DNA of 64,000 nt from Puccinia triticina. Its lineage: Eukaryota; Basidiomycota; Pucciniomycetes; Pucciniales; Pucciniaceae. This document shows positions 49,912 to 61,437 of this stretch, one piece after another. The translations under genes were made by a program, and so were the position numbers. Numbering within the stretch: position 1 is the first letter of the stretch; every line of letters begins with the position of its first letter. Location: assembly GCF_026914185.1 (NCBI RefSeq), contig NC_070569.1, positions 1,736,001 through 1,800,000 on the forward strand. Direction: 5' to 3'. The notes beneath the pieces were generated by a model. That model did no database searches, was not told the DNA's origin, and worked only from the letters and a program-made list of their open reading frames with translations.

Positions 49912-50089
49912 CAGTCAAACCTGTCTAAGGGCATGCCCTTTTAACAGCATAATCTGCCTAACAGCATAGAAAAAGACTTCCCCAGATTCTTGATTTCCCA
50001 GCAAAATAACCATCTCTAAGGGCATAACCTGCCTAAAGTCATACCAAAAGTCTTCTCCCAAAAGGTATGCCCTTAGACAGGTTTGACTG
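49912..50089. mobile_element. Pogo/Tc1-type MITE, 178 bp
   Basis: Its inverted ends CAGTCAAACCTGTCTAAGGG are flanked by TA at 49910-49911 and 50090-50091. CAGT-type ends with TA duplication fit pogo/Fot1-like transposases of the Tc1/mariner group. It is non-coding. Confidence 0.85.
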
Positions 50090-50231
50090 TAAACTGCTTT
50101 GAACCACATGATGAGGTAACTTGTCACCACACCACAATTGTGTGTGTGTTTTCTACAAAATTTTTATGCTTTGTAAGTGTTGCTAGCAGGAACCATTGTG
50201 AGTTCTTGTCTCCAAATTCTCTTCCTCCTAG

Positions 50232-50682
50232 CAACACTGGGTTGCTACGCTAACCATAGCGGTTAGCGTAGCGTAGCGCAGCGCAAATGCGCTATTTTTT
50301 AGCGTAGCGTTAGCGCAATTGCACGCATATGCGCTAACGCTACGCGCACGCGGTGCGCAGCTATTTTAGCTGATAGCGTAGCGTTAGCGCAGATGCGCGC
50401 AATTGCGCTAACGCTAAACATGCAGGGCGCAAAAGAGCGCGCGCTACGCTGCGCTACAGCGCCTTTAGCGGGGAAAAAGGGCTTTTTTTCCGCTAAAAGC
50501 GCTGTAGCGCAGCGCAGCGTAGCGTAGCGACTGAAGCGGCGCGCTAACGCTAACAAAGAATTGGCGCGCTGTTAGCGCCGCTGAAAATTAGCGCAGCGTA
50601 GCGGCGCTAACAGCGCGCTAACGCTATGCAAAATAGATGGGCGCTTTTTGCCGCTACGCTAACGCGTAGCGACCCAGTGTTG
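50232..50682. mobile_element. Word-repeat TIR element W1 (GCGTAGCG type)
   Basis: This 451-bp element has ends CAACACTGGG...CCCAGTGTTG and a 7-bp duplication CTCCTAG at 50225-50231 and 50683-50689. Nearly the whole interior is built from a few words (TAGCG, CGCTAACG, GCGC) and their complements. It folds around a centre near 50475-50480 (GCGGGGAAAAAGG / CTTTTTTTCCGC). It has no coding capacity. Confidence 0.8.
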
Positions 50683-50689
50683 CTCCTAG

Positions 50690-51082
50690 GAACAAAGGGT
50701 AATTACGTTACGTTGTGTTATTATGCACAATTTGGGTAACGTAACTACCCCCGTTATCTGAGGCCCCCCGTTACTTTACTAGTAATGGTCTCATTTCAGG
50801 CCCGGCGCATAACGCAACGGGCCTCAGAAATGAGGCCAGTTATTAAGTTATCCGGGGGATAACGCAATAACGGGTCATTCAAATTAAGGCTTTTTCAGCC
50901 TCATTTTTGCCCACTCTCAGGGGCTCCGCACGCCCGGATAACGCAACAAGCATAAAAAAACGGCTTCATGTGGTGCAATAATGTAATTGCACCGCCGTTA
51001 TGCGTAACGGGTAGATAACAACAAAAAATCTGTTACGTTACCGTTATCTACGTGTTACGCGTAGCGTAACTACCCTTTGTTG
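50690..51082. mobile_element. Word-repeat TIR element W2 (GTTACG/ATAACG type)
   Basis: This 393-bp element has ends (G)AACAAAGGGTA...TACCCTTTGTTG and the same 7-bp duplication CTCCTAG on both sides (50683-50689 and 51083-51089). It therefore abuts W1 and shares the middle copy. The interior is rich in CGTTAC, TTATC, GGATAACGC and complements. It is non-coding. Confidence 0.75.
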
Positions 51083-51403
51083 CTCCTAGGCCAGGAGCCC
51101 TCACAATGTGTGCCATAAATAAATATCCATGTACATGTTTATTTCTCAGGCTAGGTAAAAAATTTCCAAGGACTGTCTAAGACTATTGCAATACAGCTGT
51201 AGGATGAATTTTCCCCTAGAAACATGAAAAATTATCAGAAAAAAGCCCCCTTACCCCTTGTTGCTCTAGCTCCACTCTTCTACCTTGACAAAAGCCAACT
51301 CAGGATCAAAACCCTTGTCCAAGACAGCTTTACTCCATTTTTATTCTTCTGCTATTGAGATCATCACCTGCTTGGTAAAAAATCCCTCATTGTTTGACTC
51401 AAA

Positions 51404-52275
51404 ACCCCTTTGCCTTTGATCCCCAACTGGATGGCAACTCCATTAACTTCCCTGCTTGGCAATCCAGATTCAAGGATGTTTTAGCTATTCAGGTGGTGGG
51501 TGCTTGAAATTGTACACAGGAAGGTCCCTCACCCACAAGAACAACTGTCTGATGCAAACCCAATTGTTTGCACGGAGAAAGGGTACAACCCAGAAGAATT
51601 CCGGACTAATTGGGATACACTATCTGATGTAGCTTGCTCTACCATCAAGCTTACGCTTTTGGTTGACGTATCCATCTGGCACTGCTACAAAGATCTCAAG
51701 CCCACCAGCAAGCTGTTTGATACCATCTGCAAAGCGTATGAGAGGAACACCTGGGCCTGCAGACAGATGCTTGAAGACTTGTTCTGGTGTGCCAGACACA
51801 ACCAAAGTCTTTGCATTGGCAAATGGATTGCTTGGTTTTGCAACACAGCAACAGACCTCATTAGTGTCAAGCTTACCCCAAACAATCAGAATCTGTGATT
51901 GACTCCTTCACCAGGAAAAAACAATGATCACTTGTCTGCAGGTGACATAGCAAAGTAAAAAAGGGCCTTTTCACTATTTCATGTCACTTTTAGGCAAGTG
52001 ATCATTGTTTTTTCCTGGTGCTTTGAGGTCTCAATGACTCCTGGAAACCAATTTGGGATCATCTTGTTTACTCTCCGGTTGAGTTCTCTCTCAAAAATGC
52101 TATAGGTGCTCTGGAGTTGCATGAAGTCTCAACTCAAGTCTTGAACAAGCATTTTGATGCCACTGCCTCCGCCGCAAAGACCAAACCTAAACTAGGCTGT
52201 TGGAACTCTGGCCAGAAGGGCCATCACTCAACCAGGTGCCCAAATCTATCTATCAAGAAGAAGCATGATGCTTAA
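51404..52275 (+). pseudogene. Decayed Ty1/copia gag
   Basis: The translation shows a copia-type Gag start (LDGNSINFPAWQSRFKDVL near 51429-51475). A longer frame at 51500-51898 follows (LFDTICKAYERNTWACRQML). Then, after MITE M1, a knuckle-like GCWNSGQKGHHSTRCP near 52197-52243 appears in which the second Cys is Ser. Several frameshifts and stops occur. No LTRs are recognisable. Bases 51090-51403, between W2 and this relic, show nothing else. Confidence 0.6.
51909..52020. mobile_element. MITE M1 (CACCAGGAAAAAA ends)
   Basis: This 112-bp element is almost a perfect hairpin: CACCAGGAAAAAACAATG ... CATTGTTTTTTCCTGGTG. CTT is duplicated at 51906-51908 and 52021-52023. It lies in the copia gag relic. 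CAC ends with a 3-bp duplication suggest a CACTA-like transposase. Confidence 0.85.
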
Positions 52276-53640
52276 TCTAAGTCAACTGAAGCTCAAGCTG
52301 AGTCTTTCTCCTTTGACACTCTGGGAAACTATGAATTAGATGACTGCAACATTGTATGGGGCTAAGGAGGACAACCCTCCAGACAAAATTGTTATTCTTG
52401 ACAAACACAACTCTGCTGTAAGTTAATGGTCAATCTTTCAAGCGCGTTTGATTTCTGGATACTTATTCACTGTTGTGGTGTTTACCTGTGCCTTGCCTAT
52501 ACTTTCTGACCAACTTGAAAAAAATGGGTGCAAGACAATAGTGTTCCCATGTAAGTTGTGAGGTTTTTCTGAGATGGCCTTCCTTTCAATTAGATTGGCT
52601 TATCAGTTTGACCATTTTAAATTCCAGCTGCTGCTCTAAAATCTCCTGCCCTACTTACGAGTTCCAGCGGTGGGCAGATACGTTACCCAAAATTCCGTAT
52701 TTTTGCTTTGTAAATTTGAATTTTGCACACAAAGGTTCAAGTTATCAGCAAGATTTAGAGATCAGGGCTTTGTAACACCATTATCTTCAATTTGTGCCAA
52801 AAATATCCAAACATCTTATGGAAAACTTGGAAAGGGGACATTTCTACCCACTAACCAACCTTTATTCTCACACCGGAGAGGTAGGAATGTTTTATTTCAA
52901 AGAAACAAGACATAATAGAATAAAAAAGAGGAGCCCAACAGAGCAGGGGTGGTTTAGATTCCTTGGAAAGGTGGCTGGATCCTGCTAATCAGGTGTGGTT
53001 GTGATCCCAGGAGATAGATAAAGTGGGGGGAGCAAGTTGTGTAGGGGAGGGGCTATTACTTACTTATGGAATAACCTCCCCAAGAGAAAACTAGCTCAAA
53101 GAGTATGTGAGGACGGAAAAATAGAAGGCTTAATACAACAAATTCCTAAGAGCAAGATCTACTGATTGCTTGATAATGAATCAAGAGGAAGAGAATTTGA
53201 GTGCTGTCAGAATATCAAGTGGGTGTATGAAGCTGAAGAAAGGAATCAGGAGAGGAGAACTAACTTCCTTAATAATATTTCTTCCTCCAAGGGAAGATCA
53301 TTATCCTGGTCAGTCTTCAAGTCCTTTGTTGGATCAAGTGAGAGGCAAGTGGCCAGTTGGGGTTAGTGGGACATCTCTCTGAATCTCCAATCCTGGTATT
53401 TGAGTGATGAGCTTTATAGGTGACAGTTTCCATTCATGGGGACTTGTCACTTGTCTGTTAATGACCCGCTTGCCGCCTATTTTGCATGACAGATTTGAAA
53501 ACCCAAAACAGCTGTTGGACACATCCTTTAGTTCGCGGCAGTACGCGCCAAGACCCTTTTGATCATTCTTTTTATAATGTAATATTATTTCAGTGAGGTC
53601 TTTTTATGTTATGCTGGCTTGTGCTTTGCAGGCAGAAGTT
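52276..53640. other. Intergenic stretch
   Basis: No gene is supported. Two open frames (52670-52915 and 53170-53382) have no recognisable motif. A purine-rich stretch lies at about 53010-53060. Confidence 0.5.
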
Positions 53641-53659
53641 TATAAGTTCTACTTTCATG

Positions 53660-53925
53660 GTGGCTTGTGCTGTGTAGCCAGCTGACATTCCTGGTCATTG
53701 AAAGGGATGAGTCCTTCCAATGACCAGCAACAGTCATTGAGAGGGTTGTTTCCTCCCAATTACCAGTCTCAACTGGTCATCAAGAGGGATGAGTCCTCCC
53801 AATGATCAGCCCCAGACATTGCAAGTAATGTGTCCTACCAATGACCAGCACCGGTCATTGAGAGGTTTTTTTTACTCCCAATGGCTGGTCTGCGGCGGCC
53901 ATCAAGGGGGGAGTGTGAAAGGGTG
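53660..53925. repeat. Array of palindromic units (GGTCATT...AATGACC)
   Basis: Five or six units of about 45-50 bp recur, such as GGTCATTGAAAGGGATGAG followed by TCCTTCCAATGACC, each self-complementary. The core (AGGGATGAGTCCTTCC) is organised like the unit core of the 13.4-kb array (GGGAGGGAGTCCGCCC). The two arrays may derive from related transposons. Confidence 0.65.
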
Positions 53926-54148
53926 CACTCCAAGGTTTTTTGGAGTGCGCTTCTGCGTACTCCAGCATTTCCTGGGGTGAAAATAGTTCACTCCAAAAAC
54001 CACGTCTTTTTGTAGTGAAATATTTTCACTGCAAGAAATGTTGAGTTGTCTGTTTGTCTGCTACCATGATGTATCACCACAGTATGGCGGGCTGTTGGAT
54101 TGACTCATGAGCACTACCAACCAACCACCCAGCTGGCAGCCACAAGCA

Positions 54149-54179
<31 letters not shown>

Positions 54180-54303
54180 AGTATGTGTCTCAGCATGGCT
54201 GAGGTTGTGAGTTTGACTCTCACCAGACACATCTTCATTCTACAGTCATTACAAGAAATGCTGGAGTGCACGCCTGTGCACTCCAAAAAAACCTTGGAGT
54301 GTA
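53924..54303. mobile_element. TIR element enclosing a tRNA-like sequence
   Basis: Ends of about 50 bp are inverted copies (TGCACTCCAAGGTTTTTTGG at left, its complement at right), each also containing an internal hairpin with CACTCCAA/TTGGAGTG. The outer edges blur into the flanks, so the exact termini and target duplication are unclear. The middle holds a tRNA-like segment at 54146-54230. Confidence 0.6.
54146..54230 (+). ncRNA. tRNA-like sequence (degenerate, long variable arm; SINE head or tRNA relic)
   Basis: A D-arm GCC-TAGTCGGTAAA-GGC matches an A box. A T-arm GTGAG-TTTGACT-CTCAC matches a B box. A stem-loop CTCAG-CATGG-CTGAG sits where the long variable arm of tRNA-Ser/Leu would be. 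The acceptor stem pairs only partly (TCTG/CAGA), so it is not a functional tRNA. Confidence 0.55.
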
Positions 54304-54714
54304 CAGCTTTTTTGGTGTGTGCAGGGGATTTTTTTGGTGTGCAAAAAGACAGAACCTAAAAAAAAGGAGTTGAATGTTTTTTTTTTTTCACTCCCTGTGT
54401 TTTGACAAGGGCGCTGCTCCACACTCTGCCCAGCGCAAGAGACGGATTGATTTACATATAAGGTGGAGGACTTGTGACATGTTAAGTTAGATTCATCCCG
54501 CCTGCGGAGTCGGGTTCGGGGTCGGGGGCTCTCACCCGGGGGCTTGGGGTACAGGCCTCGACCTCCGCAGACCATCGGGATCATTGATCATCAATCCTCC
54601 CTCCTAGCCAGCACGCCCTCCTCTCCGGAACAGAGCCCTACCTAGCCCTACCCAGCCGAAAACAACCAAGTCGAGACTACGCTTAATCGATTCATCAAAT
54701 CCCTTCGCTAGTTG
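54304..54714 (+). promoter_or_regulatory. Upstream region of the BZW gene
   Basis: There are AT-rich runs at 54320-54390, then GC-rich DNA and TCCTCCCTCCTAGCC before the start. No TATA box is clear. The likely 5' UTR includes GATCATCAATCC and ends CTAGTTGATG. Confidence 0.4.
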
Positions 54715-56567
54715 ATGTCTGCCGCTGCTGCTGCTAAGCCCAGTCTTGCCGGTGTCCGGAACAAACAACGGTCAGTGCTCTCTGTTATTTATCACCCGAT
54801 CGAACTCGAAACTGAACATCTCTTGCTGTTCTTGTTGGCTGGCCTGTCCTTGCCTTCCAACACATATCAGAAAAGGCGTCGCCAAAGCTGCAGCTAAATT
54901 CGAGCCCGAAGGTATGTAGATTCACATAAACACTTTTTCCTGCTCGCTCGATCCAACGAACAAGCTTTTGAAAACGTTGATGATCGGCCTTATTGACCCG
55001 AAACTCACATTTCTCCTTGTATACGTATCACAGAATTTCGCGATCAGATCCTCAAACATCTCTCGACTTTACCACCCAACGATCTTGATGCAGTAGCTGC
55101 CAAACTCGACACACTCGGAAACCAACTAGACTACCGTAAATATGAAGGCCCCTTGTTCGAGGTCCTCCTCGTCGGTGGTATCCTCGCTCCCGGTGGAAGC
55201 TTTGTCGATGATGGTGCAGAAAGAAGCCCGTTTAGTATACTGACAAGTACCCAATATCCAATCGATCAAGCCGATATGAAGAAACACGTCGATGTCTTCA
55301 ACAAGCTCATCAGAAGGTTCACCCTCCCCCTACCTATATCAGCACACTCCTGCTAACTTTTTTTCGTTAACTCATTTCAGATACAAGTACTTGCAAAAGA
55401 TCTTCGAAGAGAACGCTCTCACCGGCTTACTTCAGTACATCAACAAGTTTGAAGGACCTGACCTCGAGAAGCTGGCCTACTCCTTGGCCTTATTCATGTC
55501 TACCGCATTGACGAGCTCAAATGTCCTCTTAACTTTGCAGAAGGAGCATTTGGTTAAAGATGGTAAATAGTCGGCACCCTCACAGTTTCTTTGTTTCCAT
55601 TAGACTCGATTTATTAACAATATGTATCCTGCAGGCGTCTCTTTAAACTTCATCACCAAAGTTTTTACAGCCTATTTACAGGTTGAGTCAGCAGACCATC
55701 TCTCGGGAGCTCTTCGTCGGGGTGGGGTCGTGGACATGTACGGCTTCTTCCCGCCCCACAAACGCGAGCCATCTGATTTGGAGGCCCACTTCAAAGCAGC
55801 AAAGTTGGACGCGATCGTCGCGTATGCCCACAAACAGCGAAGCGGGCAAGTAAGAGACGAGACCTTGGTCAGGCTCCGAGAGATGGTTGCTTCAGAGGAC
55901 CCACAGAGCGAGGTTTGGCCGTCTTACCAGTCTCCCTCGGTAGATGTGATCAGCGCTAACACTTGCTTATTTCGTGTAGATCATCAGCTTCTTGCAAGAG
56001 CAAGCACAAAGCGGATTGATTCCTGATGTCGACTTCATCGCCTTGGTATGGCACGGCCTGATGGATAGACTAGACATGGGCAGTCGACCGGATCAGATTG
56101 TCGACATGGTCGTCAGAGCAGTCGTCGTAAGCATTTCTTTGATTTAGCTATCCCAAAGTACATATGCTCATAAATTGGTTTTTGTGGTTTGCTCTGCAGG
56201 CTGTAGCCCCTGTATTGGCTGCCTTTTGCAAGAACGCTAGGACTCAAATCTCGATGATTAACACTATTCAAGTCTGGGCCTACGAGTCAGTAGGCTTTTG
56301 ATCTTCTGTCCTGCGCTTGATAGAGATCACTTTTTTTATGACTGACTTTGCTGACACCTGTGTGTTCCTAGGAACACGAAAGTGATGGGGGCGTTTGCAA
56401 AGATCATCAAGGAGCTCTACGCGCACGATGCGCTTAGTGAACAGGCGATCTTGTACTGGCATAGCAAGGGCAGCAAGGCCCAGGCCCGCCAACACTTCCT
56501 CAAATCGACTGAGCCCCTGGTCAAGTTCTTGAAAGAACAAGATGAGGACGATGATGATGATGAGTGA
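54715..56567 (+). CDS. BZW: BZW/eIF5-mimic protein (W2 domain), 8 exons
   Basis: This translation regulator is related to eIF5; it binds eIF2 and eIF3 through its C-terminal W2 (HEAT-like) domain, competes with eIF5 and raises start-codon stringency. Exons by splice sites and reading frame: 54715-54770, 54871-54911, 55034-55316, 55381-55562, 55635-55912, 55980-56126, 56200-56285, 56372-56567. These give 422 residues, the usual family length (about 419). Recognisable blocks are FEVLLVGGILAPGGS, FNKLIRRYKYLQKIFEENAL, SLNFITKVFTAYL, and in the W2 part ISMINTIQVWAYENTKVM, ILYWHSKGS and FLKSTEPLVKFLKEQ. The acidic tail DEDDDDDE follows. All introns are short (64-122 nt) with GT-AG ends. It is the only housekeeping gene in the window and looks intact. 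Confidence 0.92.
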
Positions 56568-57483
56568 TGATACATGGGTTCTGTTCATGGGACTTGTATT
56601 ACTCTTCTTTCTTTCCCTTGGTCTGTCTTATGATATCAGGCCCTTGAGGGGGAGAGTTTCTCTCTCTCTCAGTCATCTTGAATCTTCATCGTCATCATTA
56701 GCTGTCCTCGCAAGAACCTCAGGTCATCTAGATACATTCTTTTCTCCTATTATGCAAGCTTATTAGGACTCTCTATAGCTTGGAAGAATGGTTCGATCTG
56801 ATAGTTGTTGTGTTGTTGGGGCAGCTGAGGCCGCTGGTTCAGAGCACAGTGATCATGATACTTTACTGAGGTTATTCACTCTCTTGTAGTGTTCAGTCAT
56901 CAAGCAGATCTTGTGAATTGGGCAAAGTTGACATGTCCCAGGAACATCATATGGACTGTCAATGTCTTTTTATGGGTCTACTACTCTAGCAACAATGGAT
57001 TACAGAAAACCAGATCATTTTTCTTGCATCTCTCTTCTTGTAATTCATCATACATCAAATGAATAATCATTGAACTTGAACTATGACTCCAAACTCAAAG
57101 GTATTCAAGCTTGAATTCACTTGAGATCAGAATCAATGGCAACAATGCCACATAGATATTGGTCCTTATGTTGGATACGCTGAAAGGATGACAGGTGACT
57201 TTGTGTGATGCAAGGTGTTACAAAAGTCCTGATAGAAGCATGTGTTTCCACTGGCCCGGTTGATGCTTAAATTGAGATGGAGGAGAGACAATCATTTTGG
57301 CTTGCTTGAATCCTGCATACTGCATCTCCCAAAATGATAACACTTGTTGTTCAATGTCTCCAACAGGCCCTTGATATTGCCATTGGCAAGAAATGGTTCT
57401 ACTTTGGTCAGTATTTTCTGTTGAAAAACTTTGCTTCCAAGCAGTTTCTCTGATTACCAATTTTTGCCACTGACTGTCACATT
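56568..57483. other. 3' flank of BZW, no gene seen
   Basis: T-rich, intergenic DNA follows the stop codon. The short open frames show no motif or family likeness. Confidence 0.5.
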
Positions 57484-57683
57484 CACCAGGAAAAATAAAG
57501 TGTCACCAGACATCAGGTGAAATCAAGCAACAATGGCTGTCACTTTTTTCCAGCTCTGGTGCTACCACAACTAGGCTAGAATGGCCCCTTTGTTTCCTAC
57601 AAGAGCCTGTGCAACTGGTGGGTAGCTCATTGGACTTGGGCTGATGTCACCGGTAGTCTAGTGATAGTTTATTTTTCCTGGTG
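57484..57683. mobile_element. MITE M2 (CACCAGGAAAAAT ends)
   Basis: This 200-bp element starts CACCAGGAAAAATAAAG and ends with the complement (TATTTTTCCTGGTG), the same family as M1. Flanks are ATT on the left and ATA on the right, a possible 3-bp duplication with one change. Confidence 0.75.
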
Positions 57684-58832
57684 ATATTTGTCATCTGTTT
57701 TGCAGGAAATGACTTGGCTGGAAATAGGTATGTATGTCTCAGTCAAATTGCTTAAAATGCTGCTTGCTGAACATTTGGGTAACTCTTTTGGATGTACACA
57801 CAGGCTCAGCTACTATGAGAAGCATCTAATTGCAGTTGGTGGCCTTTTGATTGATGAAAGTGATTCTGTTGGAATTCTCTCACCTCAATCCCATTGTTTA
57901 CTGAATAAAATCCATGTATAGATCATTAAGTGAGCATTACTAGTAAGATTAATCATACAGCTTCTCACACCTTGTAGTCTTGAACCCTGAGTAGTAGAGA
58001 TTGTCATGTCATTTTATCTTCATGTGTAGACTCCGCAAAATTATCTTGTTGATATCTAATTCATTTTGCATCAACCACATCTTTGCCGCATGTACTTAGT
58101 CTATTTATACCATATCCTAACCATGCAAATCAAACCCATTGGTTCTCTTCTATTTTTTCCACCATGTCAATCCCAGAACTGCATCTGGTCAGACTCCCTC
58201 TCACAAGCCATCCATCTTCCTGTCATTTGTGACAGTTCTCTCATTTTTTCCGCATCCCTGATCTCACAAGCTTAACAAGACCCGCGAGCACCACAAGTTG
58301 TGTAGGTGCAAGCGGGGCTTATGACCAAAAGGAACATGTTTGCGTGAGGCTATCTTGGAAATAGGGGTACAGTTTTGCCGCTTCCAATTCACAAATCCCC
58401 ACAATATGTAATTATTTTCCTGTTTTATCCCAGCTAAGCACTGGGATCTTGGCTATCTTTCTGTCCGCTCAGTTTCTCTCCAACTGGTTTTGTATTTTTC
58501 TATCTTTTTTTGAAGTTGCCAACTCCTTCAAGTTGGGTTGGCCCTTTACCAATTTTTTCCTTTTGGCAACTAGGGTTTTGGTAGGAAGTCGAGGTAGCTG
58601 ACCACTTCCAACCAGCGGAAAAACCCAAAATCCAAGAATTGGAAAGATTATTGGGCATGATGGAGATGGAATATAGGTATTCTGAGCAGACGTGATCAAC
58701 AAGAATATGCTCAAGCTCACATGGTCAGGAGGAATCATGAACTTGGTTGATACTGAAAGTGCTGTGGAGGAATAACATCCTTCACCACCAAAATTGGTGA
58801 ATGCTCTCACGCCAACACAAGCCAATAGTTCA
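57684..58832. other. Intergenic stretch with a short hairpin
   Basis: No gene is supported. Bases 58272-58322 form a hairpin (AAGACCCGC...GCACC / GGTGC...GCGGGGCTTA) similar in outer sequence to the one at 58833-58920. Confidence 0.45.
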
Positions 58833-58920
58833 TAAGCCCCCTCCACGCGGGAGAGATCACAGTGCTACACTTCTCTCCCCAGGTAAAATCTGCCTGCGCC
58901 GCAGCGTGGACGGGGGCTTA
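58833..58920. repeat. Short inverted-repeat element (TAAGCCCCC...GGGGGCTTA)
   Basis: This 88-bp unit has arms TAAGCCCCCTCCACGC and GCGTGGACGGGGGCTTA. It lies just left of W3. A second hairpin of similar design is at 58272-58322, so it may be a tiny MITE family. Confidence 0.55.
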
Positions 58921-58941
58921 GTTAAGTTTGCTGATCTCAGG

Positions 58942-59327
58942 CAACAGTGGGCCCCTACGCTACGCCAAAAAATGAGCTAACAGCAAATTACGCGGCCCTT
59001 TCCGCAGCATTGAACCACTTAAACTGGTGAGAATATTCTAGGAGCCTCCCTGATCAAAATGGTCCAGCAGGACCATTGCATCAGGGAGTCAGAACATCCT
59101 GGTTACCAGATGCAGAGCCAAAATTCCATTTTGAGGACAGTTCAGCTAACATGTTCTGTTTTGCAGCATTCAACTGCTTGCCTTGTGTGGATTGAACTAT
59201 AAGCCTCCAAGAGGGATCAGTCAATTAGGCCTGCACAATTCAGGGATTTTGGAAAATCCTGATGCCAGCTGCGCCGCTGTAATTGTCAGTTAGCTGATTT
59301 CTAGTGCAGCGTAGCGGCCCACCGTTG
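58942..59327. mobile_element. Word-repeat TIR element W3
   Basis: This 386-bp element has ends CAACAGTGGGCC...GGCCCACCGTTG and a 7-bp duplication TCTCAGG at 58935-58941 and 59328-59334. Subterminal CTACGCTACGC and GCAGCGTAGCG words are as in W1, but the middle is ordinary sequence. Confidence 0.8.
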
Positions 59328-59534
59328 TCTCAGGCTACCCTGCTCCAGCCATAGCTTCAACAGATTCTAGTACAACTTGTTCAAACTGAGTTGATTTGTT
59401 AAACCAGATCACCAATTATACAAGTCTTACCATCCTTGGTGGTTATAATTATGTAGGATGGAGCAGGTAAATTATCTGTGTTTGTCTGCATCTCTGACAA
59501 TTCAATAGTATTAACAATTTTCCTTCACTCACAG

Positions 59535-59873
59535 CAGCAATGGGCCACTGCACTACACTAACCTTATTGGAAAATAACTGTTAGTTTAGTCATTTTATTT
59601 ACTCCCAAATTCATGTTATTTGTTATCTGAGATACCAGTATCCATACTAACAATAACAGGAAATAACAGCAATAACAACAATAACAGGCCTTTTATTGCT
59701 ACTAACAGGATACAATAACAGTTATTGATGTTATCCATCACTATTTCCTGGGCAAGTTCCTGTATTGTTAGCAACACAAAAAACAAGATAACAGAAAATG
59801 TTGTTATTGTTAGCTGGTTTTGGCTAAAATACACTACACTAACAAATAATGTTAGTGTATTGGCCCACCGTTG
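59535..59873. mobile_element. Word-repeat TIR element W4 (AACAATAAC type)
   Basis: This 339-bp element has ends CAGCAATGGGCC...GGCCCACCGTTG and a 7-bp duplication CTCACAG at 59528-59534 and 59874-59880. The interior is dominated by AACAATAAC/GTTATTGTTA words and complements, with CACTACACTAAC near each end. Confidence 0.8.
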
Positions 59874-59880
59874 CTCACAG

Positions 59881-60559: not shown

Positions 60560-61437
60560 CACCAGTAAAATGAAATATTCAGTTGATGACAAGTGACATC
60601 ACACCTGCTCCAGCCAGCTACCCACCATCTATCCAATATCTATCCACTATCTACCCCAATCTCCCAACCATCTCCTCAACTTCCAAAATTTACCAAGGAG
60701 GTCCTGTTCAGTTTTTGATGAGCCCAACTGATCCTCAGTTCTGTCCAGCTGATACTCAGCTTTGGTACCCAGCTCATGCTCAGCTTTTATGCCCAGCTCA
60801 TACTCAGCTTTTTTACGCAGCTCACTCTCAGAATTGGAATAAAGCCTTTTGACCAGTCCTTGCCCAGGTGATGCTCAGCTTTGTACTAGTCCTGGCGCAG
60901 CTGATGCTCAGCTTTGTACCATTCCTTGCTCAGCCTTCTCTTAGTCCTGTCCCAGCTGACGCTCAGCTTTGACCCAGTCCTGGGCCAGCTGGCCCGCTGA
61001 TGCTCAGCTTGCTGAGTATCAGCTGACCCAGGCCAGGGAAAAAGATGGGAATCAGCTTGGACAGGATCAGAGCTGAAACTCAGCTAGGCTAGGGCCAAAG
61101 ATGAGCATCAGCTGAGCCACGGCCAAGGCTGAGCATCAGCTGTGCCAGGGCCAAAGACGATCATCAGGTGGCCGGTTCCAAAGTTGAGCATCAGCTGGGC
61201 CAAGGGAAAAACTGAGTATCAGCTGAGCTAGGGTAAAACCTAAGCATCAGCTGAGCCAGGGCCAAAGCTGAGGATCATCTGGTTTTTTCACATTGAGTGC
61301 TTTTATCCTGACACCTATCATGTGAGCCCTAGATGTGCTGGTGGAGAGGAGCAGCATTGGAGCAGTGTTGGAGCTGAAAACAAAGCTGTGTACAGTCATG
61401 TCAATTGCCATCAAGTGACTACTTTTTTTTCCTGGTG
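60560..61437. mobile_element. TIR element M3 with mirrored tandem-repeat arms
   Basis: This 878-bp element has ends CACCAGTAAAATG and ...TTTTTTTTCCTGGTG (M1/M2 family) and duplication TTG at 60557-60559 and 61438-61440. The interior (about 60690-61280) is an array of about 30-40-bp units with GCTGATGCTCAGCTTTG. It inverts near 61010 into units reading CTGAGCATCAGCTG. It is non-coding; the open frame 60583-60852 reads through the array. Confidence 0.8.

Follow-up and report, generated by a model that had tools for sequence, protein, structure and literature searches.

Short hAT7-type elements in a Puccinia triticina genome, and subterminal words that may switch together with the transposase finger

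Transposons of the hAT superfamily usually duplicate 8 bp of target DNA (available part of PMC4890040). In December 2025, Puccinia hAT families with 7-bp duplications were named hAT7; according to the available part of that report (PMC12730594), their hosts are Puccinia or Melampsora, the hAT tree places them close to Ac and Tam3, and some families carry a Tet/JBP gene. In Hermes, the available part of PMC10368747 describes BED fingers (C51, C54, H71, C73) that bind subterminal repeats, with DNA read by Q64, S66, N67 and R70 and by the main chain of R63 and T65. The hAT7 group, miniature inverted-repeat transposable elements (MITEs) and subterminal repeats are already known, and the open-access literature searched yielded no account of sibling lineages switching words. 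Here we consider four short elements with terminal inverted repeats (TIRs), W1 to W4, in a 64,000-nucleotide stretch of Puccinia triticina, hereafter the window (NC_070569.1, positions 1,736,001 to 1,800,000 of the forward strand, assembly GCF_026914185.1). Among their transposase-bearing relatives, the dominant word near the ends depends on the transposase lineage, and the tip varies little. Our interpretation, to which we would give a probability of roughly 80%, is that W1 to W4 would be moved by hAT transposases encoded elsewhere, each transposase lineage having its own subterminal word arrays that would be bound by the finger and replaced as the finger changes.

Judged from their sequence, W1 to W4 appear to be short, non-autonomous hAT7-type elements. 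A preliminary description had placed four TIR elements with 7-bp duplications here, and all four were found, each with an exact duplication (CTCCTAG for W1 and W2, TCTCAGG for W3 and CTCACAG for W4). Their features, in window coordinates and with no strand assigned, are as follows.

50225..50231: 7-bp target duplication CTCCTAG, left flank of W1
50232..50682: W1, 451 bp, probably non-autonomous hAT7-type; 34 TAGCG words in both orientations
50683..50689: CTCCTAG, a single 7-mer common to W1 and W2, which lie head to tail
50690..51082: W2, 393 bp, probably non-autonomous; 12 TAACG words; both ends align with the L068/L057 transposase lineage
51083..51089: 7-bp target duplication CTCCTAG, right flank of W2
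58935..58941: 7-bp target duplication TCTCAGG, left flank of W3
58942..59327: W3, 386 bp, probably non-autonomous; TAGCG-like words beside the tips only
59328..59334: 7-bp target duplication TCTCAGG, right flank of W3
59528..59534: 7-bp target duplication CTCACAG, left flank of W4
59535..59873: W4, 339 bp, probably non-autonomous; 17 TAACA and 10 CAATA words; tips match the element at C8:190623-198284
59874..59880: 7-bp target duplication CTCACAG, right flank of W4

The ends had been given as variants of CAAC..TGGG(C/T)C. A group with such ends does exist, but W2 departs from it, with tips GAACAAAGGGTA and (inverted) CAACAAAGGGTA that are not TGGG-type and have an altered first base. Word-built interiors had also been claimed for all four, and this holds for three. 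Compared with 200 shuffles each, W1 contains 43 YGYTA words (shuffled mean 15.3, maximum 25), W2 contains 17 (mean 5.1, maximum 13) and W4 contains 19 (mean 3.7, maximum 10), all above every shuffle. W3, with 3 words against a shuffled mean of 2.0, has no word array inside; its middle is unique sequence that is also present in locus L026. Word orientations are nearly balanced (TAGCG 18/16 in W1, TAACG 6/6 in W2, TAACA 9/8 in W4), and positions 211-288 of W1 match their own opposite strand at 87%. Three of the elements belong to families of at least 40 copies, the window copy included: for W1 the other 39 are 96-99% identical (best 40 of 972 candidates), for W2 84-86% (best 40 of 312) and for W4 93-97% (best 40 of 114). 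W1 and W2 are arranged head to tail, separated by just one 7-mer (window 50673-50699), an arrangement seen again at C1:694240-694915 (L015 862-888). These are the only two such pairs in the window and the fetched stretches, both with a spacing of 7, and they look as if one element had inserted into the other's target duplication.

Across the genome (122.8 Mb in 18 contigs, a number in keeping with 18 chromosomes in Puccinia; the basis of all genome-wide counts), the end motif CAACRSTGGG occurs at 1716 + 1720 sites, compared with 265 + 270 for a reversed-pattern control, making it 6.4 times commoner. Our end-pair script reports only 7-bp duplications, and its pattern misses W2, whose duplication was read by eye. 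It printed 24 pairs, of which 17 have exact 7-mers, 5 have one mismatch and 2 have no duplication; above 600 bp, a pair appeared in the output only when a duplication was found, and long pairs therefore lean towards success. A second set came from contig C1, with ends preselected for a pyrimidine at position 2 and a purine at position 6 among 100 places listed; it overlaps elements of the first set, and 5 repeated pairs were left out. Exactly 7 bp fits 25 of its 29 distinct pairs, 2 more are off by one base, and the remaining 2, with lengths of 5.6 and 1.2 kb, were probably paired incorrectly. For transposase-gene copies with both ends in hand, an exact 7-mer is present in 10 of 11 (C3:7673k is without one). 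A duplication of 8 bp fits none of these 29 pairs and 11 copies. The 7-bp duplication is the rule for the group, as had been proposed. Two related claims must be withdrawn: hAT7 families do match a 7-bp duplication (available part of PMC12730594), and the resemblance of the duplications to CTC is an accident of the window within a weak symmetric preference, because the genome-wide bias is only for a pyrimidine at position 2 and a purine at position 6 (1901 of 3436 ends, or 55%, vs 130 of 535, or 24%, in the reversed-pattern control). In the course of this work we also saw a 6.9-kb end pair with the duplication GTTCAAG (C1:4618431-4625354), and identical elements and duplications recurring about every 77 kb (C1:4130773, 4208153 and 4285527; 4153994, 4231368 and 4308726), which stem either from the repetition of a large segment or from the assembly.

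An autonomous relative had been sought, and long copies with such ends were found. Those at C1:2769042-2773056 and C1:474585-478189 have the same tips, 7-bp duplications and a hAT transposase with a Dimer_Tnp_hAT C-terminal domain (E 2.1e-11 and 3.3e-13, above the cut-off). Genome searches with one part of each gave at least 178 and at least 150 matches, counted as exons or pieces and not as whole elements, and one protein fragment from a long relative shares 96% identity with the Puccinia triticina protein PTTG_30554. The 7-bp duplication, the hAT transposase (on the two long relatives, not on W1 to W4 themselves) and the Puccinia host are all as in hAT7. Given the hAT domains of the long copies, the alternatives Mutator, CACTA, Tc1, P/Galileo, Dada and KDZ were not considered further; no dedicated searches were made for them. 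The 3' end of a further transposase, at C4:4774136, contains TAGCG words and terminates, as W1 does, in CCCAGTGTTG. About 1.3 kb upstream on the same strand lies an open reading frame (ORF) for a Tet-like 2-oxoglutarate oxygenase (PF20515, E 4e-57), and one element likely holds both. This ORF was spotted by reading upstream of the W1-like transposase; a PF12851 search of the genome for a Tet gene was silent, as were all 14 of its controls. Within the window, a lone end at 52665-52688, CAGCGGTGGGCAGATACGTTACCC, resembles the 3' end found in lineage L074 (transposase at C4:6346354), with no partner seen.

Alignments point to sources for two of the short elements. For W2, about 100 bp can be aligned with the L068 5' end and about 90 bp with the L057 3' end, the two ends of one element with the duplication TTGTTAT; without the tip, the best local scores of W2 are 67 and 84, compared with medians of 20 and 21. 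By this alignment, W2 appears to derive from both ends of one transposase lineage. The 3' part of W4 aligns over about 110 bp with the 3' end of C8:190623-198284 (score 51 vs 29 for the next), an element with the duplication CTCCAGG. The 5' tip of W4, CAGCAATGGGCCACT, is divergent, yet it agrees over 26 bp with the corresponding tip of the C8 element, CAACAATGGGCCACT; the two elements are, on this comparison, evidently kin. W1 has a 45-bp match to L077 at one of its ends. For W3, no coding element with homologous ends was found. W1, W2 and W4 retain little beyond word arrays, and consequently look made of words.

To compare lineages, we used terminal stretches of about 250 bp from 37 transposase-gene loci, 31 entered by the 5' end and 6 by the 3' end since their 5' tip lay outside the stretch. 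The gene 5' part could be read at 48 loci (L013, L025 and 46 fetched), and 11 were left out for want of a finger or tip (L080, L084, L087, L091, L092, L093, L097, L098, L102, L110 and L112); L033, L034, L035, L036 and L039 were left out of the 3'-end set. Word counts cover the 35 of 37 rows with a usable finger, without L079 (no finger in the stretch) and L096 (a finger, but too little sequence behind it). The tips of L085 and L090 are guesses, and the word labels of L013, L025, L059, L060, L069, L076 and L090 were set by hand before the tree was made.

Most lineage ends are rich in one word, with 4-19 copies per approximately 250 bp in both orientations, compared with 0.1-0.5 per 250 bp for such words in window positions 1-49800. 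TAACG dominates 9 rows (4-10 copies), TAGCG 11 rows (8-18) and GATGC 4 rows (8-13). TACCG is found in L059 (9) and L060 (8, alongside 7 TAACG), CAGCG in L101 (12) and L104 (19), AAGCG in L103 (16), CAATA in L089 (12) and L105 (8), and TAACA in L076 (10, plus 7 CAATA); L025 and L069 are mixed and L090 is weak. The tips of the 37 loci stay near CAACNNTG, except for CAGC in two and CAAG in three; the preliminary observation of like ends with unlike interior words was right. On the transposase tree, the word classes need 12 changes, compared with a shuffled mean of 21.4 (0 of 200 shuffles as low), and this holds when the finger is removed. Two-word ends, such as L060 and the 5' end of C8:190623-198284 (TAGCG and TAACA), suggest change word by word along lineages.

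A finger is present at the N-terminus in all 35 loci. Across the 18 rows that were aligned, C15, W17, C18, N31, L32, H35, D37, G38, C49 and A55 are invariant, giving C-x2-C-x16-H as in Hermes, with Asn at the place of Hermes N67 and an invariant later Cys. UniRef labels 2 of 21 homologues as having a "BED-type domain". In the Mantel comparison, the result for all 35 rows (r 0.68) gave way to one for the 25 rows with a finger distance of at least 0.15. In these, finger distance correlates with word distance (r 0.59; p 0.0005, the lowest value that 1999 permutations allow), and shows no clear correlation with the distance between 8-bp tips (r 0.10, p 0.07). The finger columns tied most to word differences are C+12 (S66; r 0.45), C+11 (T65; 0.35) and C+6 (0.31), which is not a contact. 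Contact columns score above the other columns, though how clearly depends on the choice of columns. With Q64, T65, S66 and R70, a choice that omitted R63 although T65 too is a main-chain contact, 0.9% of 1365 column sets score as high; with side chains only the figure is 5.3% of 455, and with all five variable contacts 1.8% of 3003.

How might the favoured reading, with transposases encoded elsewhere and finger-bound words, work? The N-terminal zinc fingers of a transposase multimer would bind the words and position the constant tip at the catalytic core, which would act there. Where the DNA-contacting residues of a finger change, the words of that lineage would be replaced copy by copy, resulting in families with like tips and unlike words, and short copies would persist because they have kept both arrays. 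The words would then be transposase-binding subterminal repeats, switched along with the finger; their association with lineage is observed here, and for binding by the finger we infer from Hermes, Ac and Tgf2 (available parts of PMC10368747 and PMC4890040). A bolder version, on which our opinion is evenly divided, is that one transposon group has repeatedly rewritten its docking sites (TAACG, TAGCG, TACCG, CAGCG, AAGCG, GATGC, CAATA and TAACA), with each word switch matched by changes in the DNA-contacting finger residues, such that sibling families stop cross-mobilising.

Several observations weigh against the favoured reading. Only one of eight fingers matches zf-BED (E 0.02, below the cut-off), the best PDB matches of the finger profile are C2H2 fingers with no BED entry among them, and the spacing after the His is unlike that of Hermes, with the fourth ligand elsewhere. 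Columns C+21 to C+27, behind the finger, have r of 0.32-0.59, partly via a gap in two groups. In the 11 loci left out of the lineage set no tip was found, and in most of them no word array either. For W1, no clear source of the second end was found among the transposase-bearing ends compared, and no 5' tip of its presumed relative at C4:4774136 was found within the next 3 kb. Lastly, residues after the finger track the words better than the finger does (r 0.69 vs 0.59), so descent alone could suffice. Old lineages would simply have diverged in their arrays, with the words bound by another part of the transposase or a host factor, or serving as promoter or methylation signals, and with the finger uninvolved. 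CpG-bearing words near a Tet-like oxygenase gene would suit a methylation role. We consider this account unlikely, though worth taking seriously, since the finger-word correlation persists when the post-finger residues are controlled for (partial r 0.39, p 0.0005). In a tree built without the finger, moreover, L077, with TAGCG words and Ser at C+12, groups with L076 and the TAACG lineages (96/83), and a single clade of all TAGCG, CAGCG and AAGCG rows, named after the first tree and involving a long branch, is rejected (p-AU 0.019). TAGCG and TAACG/TAACA words have therefore parted at least twice, each time together with Ser/Tyr vs Gly/Ala at C+12, although two events are too few for a test.

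Decay of CpG, with CG becoming CA or TG, could have made TAACA from CG-bearing words, in which case W4 only mimics a new word class. The 5' tip of W4 does have CA twice where the C8 element has CG. This local hint is opposed by the differences between copies: CG/TG/CA changes make up only 1 of 10, 1 of 14 and 1 of 11 differences in three W4-family copies, and 2-6 of 5-19 in four W1-family copies. Decay is also unable to make TACCG or GATGC from TAACG. We rejected it as a general cause of word change and think it improbable for W4. That an unusual copying process rewrites interiors in a self-complementary word, as had been proposed, is scarcely credible despite the near-equal orientations and the self-complementary part of W1, because the same words fill the terminal approximately 250 bp of transposase-bearing copies, to which both W2 and, by its 3' part, W4 can be aligned, the word positions being in register for W2, while ordinary substitutions separate family copies and two-word ends exist.

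Other repeats were seen along the way. At L022 798-3344 (C1:2389797-2392343), a W1-family copy with the duplication GCTGCGG carries an insert of about 2 kb, CACTA-like by eye, with ends CACCAGGAAAAA, flanking TAC and an interior of CTCGCCGAG/CTCGGCGAG word repeats. Similar units occur in the window at 60740-61280, as CAGCTGATGCTCAGCTTTG-like repeats whose strand flips near 61010; the GATGC-rich stretch at 60751-61250 was considered as an array of the present group and rejected as a different repeat. A 178-bp element at window 49912-50089, with long inverted ends CAGTCAAACCTGTCTAAGGGCAT and TA on both flanks, resembles a Tc1/mariner MITE.

Two matters are at stake here: the choice of DNA words by hAT zinc fingers, and the joint evolution of a transposase with its dispersed sites. 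Many sibling lineages with readable arrays in one genome make these testable by simple binding assays, and puzzling word-built repeats of a rust genome are explained without new chemistry. If the bolder version is true, this genome would hold a natural recognition table for BED-like fingers, whose first letter would be Gly/Ala vs Ser/Tyr next to the invariant Asn, and also a record of the copy-by-copy replacement of binding-site arrays.

Compared with hAT7 as described in the available part of PMC12730594, the present group shares the host genus, the 7-bp duplication and the hAT transposase, and the Tet-like oxygenase ORF upstream of one transposase may be a further likeness; in contrast, W1 to W4 are short and non-autonomous. 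The words "subterminal", "MITE" and "BED" do not occur in the main text of that report. The hAT MITEs with 8-bp duplications (e.g., mar of Drosophila, available part of PMC3517528) are likewise short hAT derivatives in many copies, whereas the duplication here is 7 bp and W1, W2 and W4 are nearly all words. Hermes and Tgf2 (available parts of PMC10368747 and PMC4890040) also have short words scattered near the tips in both orientations and an N-terminal finger, although in the fingers here the last Cys is farther from the His than in Hermes. Unlike in those systems, the arrays here are denser, binding by the finger is a probable rather than a described property, and many different words are found among sibling lineages of a single genome.

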